Positions 11,966 through 13,335 of a stretch of DNA of 64,000 nt are shown one piece after another (position 1 is the first letter of the stretch; each line of letters starts with the position of its first letter). The DNA is taken from positions 1 to 64,000 of the forward strand of contig NZ_QREV01000016.1 of the NCBI RefSeq assembly GCF_003363715.1, given 5' to 3'. This stretch comes from Parabacteroides acidifaciens. GTDB taxonomy: Bacteria; Bacteroidota; Bacteroidia; Bacteroidales; Tannerellaceae. The notes under the pieces are model-generated. The model worked only from the letters and a program-made list of their open reading frames with translations, did no database searches and was not told the DNA's origin. The position numbers and the translations under genes were made by a program.

Positions 11966-12060
11966 CCGTGCGAGTGCAGCAGAAGACCCGCAAGCCCGGA
12001 GCGCCGGTGCTTCCCTCTGTCCGCCCTCGGCATATATTGATTTCGGAAAGCGTTTTAAGA

Positions 12061-12269
12061 TATCATCTCTTGCCAATCGAACTTCGCAACTTTGATTCAT
12101 TACTGGAGAGATGGTAGCAACAAACGCTCACGTGCATTGTTTGTATATAGGTGGCCCCCTCGGCCGTATATATAGGATAATGGCGTGAGTGCTGTTGCTT
12201 ATCTTCAGTAAAGGTAATGCGAAGACCTGATTGGCAAGATAAGCGTAAACAGTAACTCACGCTTTTTTT
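12061..12269 (+). ncRNA. Candidate structured RNA, rod-like hairpin (6S-like?)
   Basis: The two halves of 12069-12238 pair as a long, interrupted rod: CTTGCCAATC 12069-12078 with GATTGGCAAG 12229-12238; CTTCGCA 12082-12088 with TGCGAAG 12218-12224; TTACTG 12100-12105 with CAGTAA 12206-12211; AGCAAC 12116-12121 with GTTGCT 12194-12199; CTCACG 12127-12132 with CGTGAG 12184-12189; then an apical GGCC/GGCC hairpin flanked by TATATA. An intrinsic terminator follows at once and a good promoter lies upstream. The size and the rod with interior bubbles recall 6S RNA, including the Bacteroidetes 6S-Flavo family, but no primary motif was matched. A miniature inverted-repeat element is the main alternative. 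Confidence 0.5.
12241..12269 (+). terminator. Intrinsic terminator of the hairpin RNA
   Basis: AAGCGT (12241-12246) pairs with ACGCTT (12259-12264), followed by a run of seven T (12263-12269). It directly abuts the rod-like hairpin and has no protein gene in front of it. Confidence 0.6.
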
Positions 12270-12293
12270 GTGCCCGTATGTGTAGGGGCGGTT

Positions 12294-12500
12294 TCTCACC
12301 GGTGGTGAGGTTATAAGGTCACCGATGGTGAGGTGGTAAGGTTGGAGATGGTGAGGTGGTAACATCACGGACGACGATGTGGTAACATAGCAGAGCCAGA
12401 TGTGGTAAGTTCATAGAGCGTGAAGCGGTAAGTTCATGGACTGTGAAGTGGTAAGTTCATAGAGCATGAAGTGGTAAGGTCACGGGCTGTGAATAAATAG
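12294..12500. repeat. 23-bp tandem array, nine units
   Basis: Nine consecutive units of exactly 23 bp begin at 12294, 12317, 12340, 12363, 12386, 12409, 12432, 12455 and 12478. Eight end in TAA and most in GGTGGTAA or a close variant; the last is degenerate. Units 1, 2 and 6-9 carry a small dyad whose arms change together: TCACC/GGTGA in units 1-2, TCAT/ATGA in unit 8, TCAC/GTGA in unit 9, and TCAT/GTGA in 6-7. The array starts directly after a GTAGGGGCGG half-repeat (12282-12291) and ends 5 bp before the large repeat DR1. It is not a CRISPR: there are no unrelated spacers. Confidence 0.85.
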
Positions 12501-12505
12501 CTAAA

Positions 12506-12699
12506 ACTCCCTCCCCCGCTTTCGCGGGTACTCCCTCTATAAACAGAGGGAGAGCTTGAGATAGTTTTAGATGCTATGGCAGACACTATATAAACTGATT
12601 ATAAACTGTTACTAATACATAAACTAATTATAAACTAATACATCCTACAGCTCTCCCTCTATTTATAGAGGGAGTACCCGCGAAAGCGGGGGAGGGAGT
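12506..12699. repeat. Large composite repeat, left copy (DR1)
   Basis: A 51-bp arm (12506-12556) beginning ACTCCCTCCCCCGC is inverted, with a single mismatch, at 12649-12699. The 92 bp between them are A/T-rich and include AGATAGTTTTAGATGCTATG (12559-12578). The whole is a 194-bp palindrome-like element. Each arm itself has two small stems, CCCGC/GCGGG and CTCCCTCT/AGAGGGAG. A second copy in the same orientation lies beyond the nuclease gene. Confidence 0.88.
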
Positions 12700-12733
12700 A
12701 TACATATTATATAATATAAACAACACATACACC

Positions 12734-13126
12734 ATGCAACACTCCAACCGCCCCACTCTTCTCACCTTCCGCCGCGAACTCCGTACCGCCGGAACGCCGG
12801 CCGAAGCCTTCCTCTGGACCCGACTCAAAGGGCGGCAGATGAACGGAATGCGTTTCCGCCGGCAGTTCAGCGTAGACTGCTTCATACTCGATTTCTATTG
12901 TCCCGAATGCCGCCTGGCCGTCGAGCTGGACGGGGCGGGGCATTTCACGGAAGAGGGGCGCATCTATGACGAGGCACGGACTGAGTATCTCGGGCAGCTG
13001 CACGGGATACGGGTGATCAGGTTTGAGAATAGGGAGGTGTTCGAGCATATAGAAGGGGTGCTGGGGGAGATACGGGGGGAGATGTTACAACTCCCTCCCC
13101 CGCTCGCGCGGGTACTCCCTCTATGA
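12734..13126 (+). CDS. DUF559 family endonuclease-fold protein
   Basis: 130 residues, no signal peptide. This is the DUF559 family, related to the Vsr/PD-(D/E)XK nuclease fold. Visible family blocks are AEAFLWTRLKGRQMNGMRFRRQ (about 24-44), D53 in ILDFYC, E64 and D66 in VELDG, H70 in GAGHF, and the closing IRVIRFENREVFEHIEGVL. The conserved domain ends near residue 117; the final dozen residues (QLPPPLARVLPL) and the stop codon are encoded by the first 37 bases of the direct repeat at 13090. The gene is alone between two copies of that repeat, so gene and repeats look like one unit. Nuclease activity and target are inferred, not known. Confidence 0.88.
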   Translation: MQHSNRPTLLTFRRELRTAGTPAEAFLWTRLKGRQMNGMRFRRQFSVDCFILDFYCPECRLAVELDGAGHFTEEGRIYDEARTEYLGQLHGIRVIRFENREVFEHIEGVLGEIRGEMLQLPPPLARVLPL

Positions 13127-13316
13127 ATAGAGGGAGAGCTTTAGATAGTTTTAGATGCTATGCTTGACACACAAACTTGAGATAGTTTTAGATGCTATGT
13201 CAGACACTATAATAAACTAAGTATAAACTGTTACATCAACTGATTATTAACTGTTACATCCTTTAGCTCTCCCTCTGTTTATAGAGGGAGTACCCGCCGC
13301 AGGCGGGGGAGGGAGT
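13090..13316. repeat. Large composite repeat, right copy (DR2)
   Basis: Same orientation as DR1. The left arm at 13090-13140 and the inverted right arm at 13265-13316 each match DR1 with only a few changes. The interior is related to that of DR1 but 33 bp longer, because the block AGATAGTTTTAGATGCTATG is present twice (13143-13162 and 13180-13199). The left arm supplies the end of the nuclease gene; the right arm ends 19 bp before the next start codon. Confidence 0.88.
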
Positions 13317-13335
13317 AACTAAACACAACATCATC

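Follow-up and report, generated by a model that had tools for sequence, protein, structure and literature searches.

The stretch of DNA analyzed here, hereafter the window, comprises 64,000 nucleotides from Parabacteroides acidifaciens and contains two same-orientation repeats, DR1 and DR2, whose copies are 82-89% alike. Each repeat consists of ~51-bp arms, inverted, with an A/T-rich core in the middle, and the sole gene between them encodes a DUF559 nuclease. This layout had been proposed, with the coordinates listed below, in a preliminary description made from the sequence alone, and it held. The same is true of the claim that the last ~12 codons and the stop of the gene lie within a DR2 arm: residues 119-130, i.e. 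the last 12 codons, are encoded by arm 3 of DR2, and the stop codon TGA (13124-13126) falls inside the loop of the hairpin of the DR2 left arm. What this description had missed is a third strand, since the arms are more than palindromes and display the organization of intrastrand-triplex motifs (M1 to M4). The features of the locus are the following:

12506-12699, no strand: DR1, two triplex motifs arranged as a dimer, with third strands outward from the A/T-rich core
12506-12556, minus strand: arm 1, triplex motif M1, composed of third strand ACTCCCTC, linker hairpin CCCGCTTTCGCGGG, main hairpin CTCCCTCTATAAACAGAGGGAG and AGCT; 8/8 triads, DNA fold z -4.8
12557-12648, no strand: A/T-rich core of DR1, containing AGATAGTTTTAGATGCTATG and TATAAACT repeats
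12649-12699, plus strand: arm 2, triplex motif M2, third strand toward the gene; 8/8 triads, z -4.5
12734-13126, plus strand: DUF559 nuclease gene, 130 aa, intact
13090-13316, no strand: DR2, second dimer, oriented like DR1
13090-13140, minus strand: arm 3, triplex motif M3, third strand toward the gene; 8/8 triads, z -4.1
13141-13264, no strand: A/T-rich core of DR2, in which a 36-bp CTTGAGATAGTTTTAGATGCTATG unit is duplicated internally
13265-13316, plus strand: arm 4, triplex motif M4; 8/8 triads

When the 5.1-Mb genome was searched for the arm palindrome with at most 2 mismatches, four occurrences were found, all at this locus, and the reversed-control palindrome gave none at the same limit; the repeats are therefore not a product of chance. 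A DNA search of the genome with the whole DR1 returned no further significant copy. Plant miRNA matches from Rfam at 12502-12706 and 13083-13320 were discarded as spurious, being far below the gathering scores and reflecting the long palindromes.

The window protein belongs to DUF559 (PF04480), with E=9e-28 and 96.7 bits against a curated cut-off of 20.6. The conserved positions of the family (R, E, W, Q, D, E, H, D, R) are intact, all invariant columns being present. The AlphaFold2 model has a pLDDT of 89.7, and its confidence is lowest over the final 10 residues, at the repeat-encoded end. The fold is Vsr-like/PD-(D/E)XK: the nearest solved structures are 3hrl, which is NGO0050 of Neisseria (E=1e-7), and 3r3p, the catalytic domain of the homing endonuclease I-Bth0305I (E=5e-4, and E=2.6e-6 by profile comparison), with a weaker match to Vsr. 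The previous assignment of the gene as a Vsr/PD-(D/E)XK-like DUF559 thus held as well. DUF559 is a very common nuclease family whose role is not known. Earlier work on its members, such as YcjD, NGO0050 and VsrA, describes an orphan or a Vsr-like repair nuclease, and an association with repeats is not mentioned in the literature that we found. VsrA, a DUF559 protein of Caulobacter, triggers a DNA-damage response in cells without a cytosine methylase and has been proposed to be a mismatch-repair nuclease (PMC12907096). In evolved Legionella, DUF559-bearing segments are among the recombination hotspots (PMC12308824). By analogy, both reports are consistent with an active DNA-cutting enzyme, cleavage by the window protein itself being inferred.

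Every arm is made of two hairpins and a tail. A small linker hairpin, CCCGC...GCGGG, lies next to a main hairpin, CTCCCTCT...AGAGGGAG, and DNA folding of the arms gives z-scores of -3.8 to -4.8. The tail past the linker, GGAGGGAG, mirrors the purine strand of the main hairpin and could therefore fold back onto it as a third strand. Counting G on G and A or T on A as allowed triads, all four window arms reach 8/8 on the tail side and just 3-4 on the opposite side. A scan of the 64 kb for triplex motifs returned only these four arms. The arms meet the criterion of a Y-loop-R hairpin with a mirror-matched purine third strand, and they have the intrastrand-triplex architecture described as Box C, PIT element or TM; this is shown as a sequence motif, and the formation of a physical triplex is inferred. 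Like Box C/PIT/TM, they combine a hairpin with a G-rich mirror third strand in intergenic, paired inverted copies. However, they fail the literal TM-ECO consensus with its 3-nt second loop: their hairpin, of the 8-bp class, has another sequence, and the N3 second loop is replaced by one of ~17 nt that forms a small hairpin of its own.

Box C/PIT/TM repeats have been familiar in E. coli since the 1990s; to our knowledge, neither an enzyme nor a function nor a way of spreading has been assigned to them. They are abundant in E. coli and occur in more than 260 bacterial genomes (Holder et al. 2015, PMC4666352). The same study tied the triplex motif to genome instability, reported no association with a mobile element and makes no mention of a nuclease; promoter or terminator activity of PIT elements is reported to be absent (PMC4666352).

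In relatives of the window genome, paired palindromic repeats surround most DUF559 genes, and their sequence differs from genome to genome. We analyzed 80 DUF559 loci from GTDB species with flanks of up to 10 kb, which are best hits and no random sample. A repeated segment common to both flanks accompanied 44/75 DUF559 genes, whereas for other ORFs of these contigs the figure was 30/659 (p=1e-30). A full triplex motif lay within 450 bp at 69 of the 80 loci and in 29/805 control bins (p=5e-67). Because Bacteroidales loci had initially served to define the hairpin, the figure outside Bacteroidota is given apart: 26/28 loci versus 19/250 control bins (p=3e-22). The enrichment near DUF559 amounts to 16- to 29-fold against the same contigs. 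The third strand forms at least 7 triads on its own hairpin in 78% of cases, a value that falls to 30% after exchanging hairpins among loci and to 6% after shuffling the flanks; hairpin and third strand therefore vary together. Where motifs lie on both sides, the nearest ones face the gene from both sides at 20 of 31 loci (p=4e-6), as they do in the window. Among stand-alone DUF559 genes, 16/71 have the 3' end of their ORF inside a motif, so that the repeat-encoded C-terminus is recurrent, yet not the rule. Altogether, the sequence evidence establishes that hairpin and third strand covary and that the repeats bracket DUF559 at most of the tested loci, in many phyla. The preliminary description had stated that arms occurring throughout genomes without enrichment near DUF559 genes would refute it. 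The opposite was found, the arms being confined to the locus in this genome and the motifs being enriched at DUF559 across phyla. At a locus of Neisseria gonorrhoeae (L042), tandem units of 281 bp, each carrying the GTCCTCTCTCCCTGTGGGAGAGAG repeat, come after the DUF559 gene.

The second refutation that had been set, namely the same fixed arrangement in all related strains, was not observed either. In the sister species G012, both sides of the locus are syntenic and DR1, the gene and DR2 are missing, save ~20 bp that match the outer end of the last arm (arm 4, about 13298-13321), which survive at the same place. For G012, this shows loss or decay at an old site and no clean empty site, and no close-strain insertion has been seen at the window locus itself. 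At this place in G012 (L081, 8055-8190), the start of a short ORF (MSTANTIALLNELAKDVKND...) enters the arm remnant and may possibly be part of another inserted gene.

Empty orthologues were found for DUF559 copies that lie in frame within housekeeping genes. In the class, many of the top-scoring DUF559 matches fall inside long open frames, where triplex motifs border the domain on either side. Such frames, of 1,000-1,400 aa, were considered as fusion proteins that could serve as a repeat-free control; this was rejected, given the triplex motifs at the edges, and they are in-frame insertions. The hosts identified with Pfam are leucyl-tRNA synthetase (LeuS, at two sites), methionine synthase (MetH), HsdR and a CapF-like gene; partial matches point to IleS, RecJ, an acetyl-CoA-synthetase-like AMP-binding enzyme (Acs), HsdM and a methionine synthase B12 domain. 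The in-frame repeats translate as SPSPQERG, PSPRGEGPGER or LPLGEDLGG. LeuS site 1 is empty in the window genome, G012, G056, G109, G064 and G143. For LeuS site 2, filled (G195, G097, G135) and empty (G165, G265) orthologues coexist within one genus. Where this was checked, the filled LeuS is the sole LeuS match of its genome. The LeuS and MetH cassettes keep the reading frame open, and none gave an intein-family hit. The sequence evidence thus demonstrates that gene and repeats insert together as one discrete unit, which orthologous sites, in-frame positions in essential genes among them, either carry or lack.

In the DUF559 tree, the in-frame copies (LeuS, MetH, IleS, RecJ, Acs, CapF-like) form one supported clade (98/95), inside which the host genes interleave, LeuS site 1 requiring 7 changes; phyla are mixed among the stand-alone copies. 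Interleaved hosts and mixed phyla are what one would expect if the unit moved between sites and between hosts, an inference that rests on the tree. The same LeuS position has been occupied repeatedly in several families, by unrelated DUF559 subclades.

The dispersal of the repeats was then compared with the presence of DUF559, without correction for phylogeny at either the genus or the class level. Within the genus, 39 genomes were searched for the palindrome GCTCCCC...GGGGAGC, which has 0-1 copies in 32 of them and 13-40 copies in the other 7, often as pairs ~91 bp apart. In the 36 genomes scanned for both, DUF559 is present in 6/7 repeat-rich genomes versus 3/29 others (p=3e-4). Among 247 genomes of the class, those carrying CCCCTCCT...AGGAGGGG are DUF559-positive in 29 of 32 cases, versus 92 of 215 for the remainder (p=2e-7); all 14 genomes with at least 3 copies are positive, and copy numbers are correlated (rho 0.41). 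With one exception, the sequences thus show that genomes with many dispersed repeats carry DUF559. The exception, G003, is a genus genome (89% complete) that is repeat-rich without DUF559. Also against the link, G025 and G060 carry the arm type of the window in dispersed form, and no DUF559 was seen beside the sampled copies. Many DUF559-positive genomes lack the palindromes that were searched; one would expect this if the motifs are lineage-specific, a lineage difference that has not been shown.

Some of these genomes deserve a description of their own. The dispersed window-type arms of G025 (L083, L086, L089) and G060 (L084, L087, L090) lie in ~100-bp elements, in which the arm is paired with a second hairpin, CTCCTCCTCTG...AGAGGAGG. 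At L086, the repeat family that surrounds the DUF559 gene of G025 sits in a long palindrome nearby. In the class, G116, G152 and G069 contain 10-11 DUF559 copies each, and G116, with 72 palindromes and a DUF559 pair ~0.6 kb apart, appears to be a good spot in which to look for recent movement.

The E. coli DUF559 gene, ycjD, has TM-type motifs on its downstream side. The E. coli copies match the TM consensus CCCTCNCCCN3-6GGGNGAGGGN3GGGNGAGGG. The TM core GAGAGGGTTAGGGTGAGGG, with at most 2 mismatches, has 27 copies in strain H240 and 14 in KE47, and its reversed control is absent from both at the same mismatch limit. Of sixteen H240 sites that were checked, about six match KE47 copies, and at trpS-yhfZ and lldD-trmL the element is missing, or another one is there, in other E. 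coli strains. Triplex copies are thus present or absent at the same sites between E. coli strains. Incidental counts revealed no clear difference in E. coli TM copy number according to ycjD presence, and they are not used as evidence. The ycjD gene and its motifs are kept in about 3,363 of 5,426 E. coli genomes. In the sapF-fabI interval, the three other genomes examined (L047-L049, versus L046) have the beginning of an MFS efflux/outer-membrane operon after sapF instead.

We propose that the window locus is probably one copy of a widespread and apparently undescribed selfish element, in which a gene for a Vsr-fold DUF559 protein lies within repeats of the Box C/PIT/TM type. According to this model, the DUF559 nuclease would recognize the repeat, probably folded in transiently single-stranded DNA, the triplex fold marking its substrate; this is inferred in the absence of binding data. 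The nuclease would then nick or cut at or beside the repeat, which is again an inference, as there are no cleavage data for any DUF559 on the motif. The break would be repaired by copying another repeat or a gene-bearing unit, an equally inferred step by which the repeats would spread, and the gene itself less often, much as homing endonucleases and REP-RAYT pairs spread with a different chemistry. Repeats that read open in frame would allow landing in coding sequence with survival of the host. Since a PD-(D/E)XK nuclease has no known strand-rejoining chemistry, host repair must complete the insertion. The ends of the element coincide with the triplex motifs and, by eye, there is no clear target-site duplication. 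The preliminary suggestion that the repeats are the substrate of the nuclease or its means of spread, as for REP-RAYT pairs or homing units, is supported, with cleavage and active mobility remaining inferences.

A parallel can be drawn with several known systems. Like REP/REPIN-RAYT (TnpA-REP), the element has palindromic repeats, often paired and inverted, which flank the gene of a DNA-cutting enzyme and are dispersed in the genome; flanking and dispersed repeats are both seen in relatives and in E. coli, and the window genome has flanking repeats only, none being dispersed. Unlike REP-RAYT, it encodes a PD-(D/E)XK/Vsr-fold nuclease and no HUH Y1 enzyme (PF01797), has no GTAG tag, carries a triplex motif instead of a simple hairpin and is also found in frame in coding genes. 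With the Vsr-like homing endonucleases (EDxHD; I-Bth0305I) it shares the fold and the insertion of the gene in conserved genes. On the other hand, it has no intron or intein, is flanked by triplex motifs and its in-frame insertion is apparently retained in the host protein; no intron RNA family was detected at the window locus. Like MITEs and IS, it shows inverted repeats around a gene and non-autonomous derivatives, but it lacks a DDE, Y1 or serine transposase and a clear target-site duplication. By analogy, the element would thus resemble REP-RAYT and homing units while being built from unrelated parts, and it fails the defining test of each (no Y1; no intron or intein).

One could wonder whether the nuclease is a plain homing endonuclease that favors conserved or repeat-rich sites, the repeats being a landing pad or a tolerated linker moved by something else. 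The closeness of its fold to I-Bth0305I, the repeated landing at one LeuS position by unrelated subclades and the dispersed arms of G025 and G060 with no DUF559 beside them would fit this view. Nevertheless, we consider it unlikely, as most DUF559-negative genomes of the genus are devoid of the repeats, copy numbers track DUF559 and the orientation of the motifs relative to the gene is non-random. Another possibility is that a RAYT/IS200-type Y1 transposase moves the repeats, with DUF559 as a passenger. The paired inverted palindromes ~91 bp apart do look REPIN-like, and the window genome has one Y1_Tnp gene. However, Y1_Tnp is not associated with repeat-rich genomes of the genus (2/7 versus 7/32, p=0.65), and it is DUF559, and no Y1 enzyme, that lies between the repeats, which makes this explanation very improbable.

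It could also be argued that DUF559 is a host repair or defense nuclease whose gene happens to bear terminator or regulatory hairpins. The mismatch-repair role proposed for VsrA of Caulobacter (PMC12907096) and the terminator-like G/C hairpins of the arms would speak in favor of it. Against it, the motif is found on both sides and includes a third strand that fits its hairpin, it also occurs dispersed at other places and accompanies the gene when this enters coding sequence, discrete gene-plus-repeat insertions are seen, and PIT elements are reportedly without promoter or terminator activity (PMC4666352); we thus regard it as very unlikely. On the same grounds (both sides, matched third strand, movement with the gene, negative PIT tests), a terminator or promoter role was rejected as the main explanation of the arms. 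Finally, common G/C hairpins could lie near DUF559 by coincidence or hitchhiking: short palindromes exist in all genomes, and 29/805 control bins do hold a motif. The extent of the enrichment all but excludes it, together with the near absence of the palindrome (0 to 1 copies) from every DUF559-negative genus genome but one. Carriage as phage or plasmid cargo was likewise rejected, since phages and plasmids seldom yield a DUF559 hit (4 records for phages and 36 for plasmids, several of the plasmid ones being misfiled whole chromosomes).

The selfish-element reading, which we prefer, provides a first candidate enzyme for a repeat family that was recognized long ago and had remained an orphan. 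Linking DUF559 with the triplex repeats makes the questions about both directly testable, with E. coli K-12 ycjD. The combination of DUF559 and triplex is absent from the open-access literature that we searched, and a prior description elsewhere cannot be excluded. A bolder hypothesis, which in our opinion could just as well prove wrong as right, is that DUF559 proteins are triplex-recognizing nucleases driving a new class of mobile elements. They would carry Box C/PIT/TM repeats, along with the gene that encodes them, from one intergenic site to another. By way of repeats that leave the reading frame open, they would also enter essential enzymes (leucyl-tRNA synthetase, for instance) at surface loops, nuclease and host enzyme persisting as one unspliced protein. 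The link between DUF559 and the triplex repeats, if confirmed, would add a type of mobile element built on triple-stranded DNA and a PD-(D/E)XK nuclease, and a possible explanation for the genome instability reported near triplex motifs. It also reveals an unusual route for a nuclease domain into essential proteins, apparently without splicing.

Two further features were observed to the left of the locus in the window. A 23-bp tandem array of the GAAGTGGTAAGTTCATAGAGCAT type (12307-12490) lies directly left of DR1 and is absent at the syntenic place in G012. Next to it, positions 12048-12275 contain a strongly structured, rod-like RNA candidate without a match in Rfam, in which a ~180-nt hairpin (z = -7.6) is followed by a terminator-like T run. 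This candidate is kept in the sister species G012 with a few compensatory changes, and its shape is 6S RNA-like.
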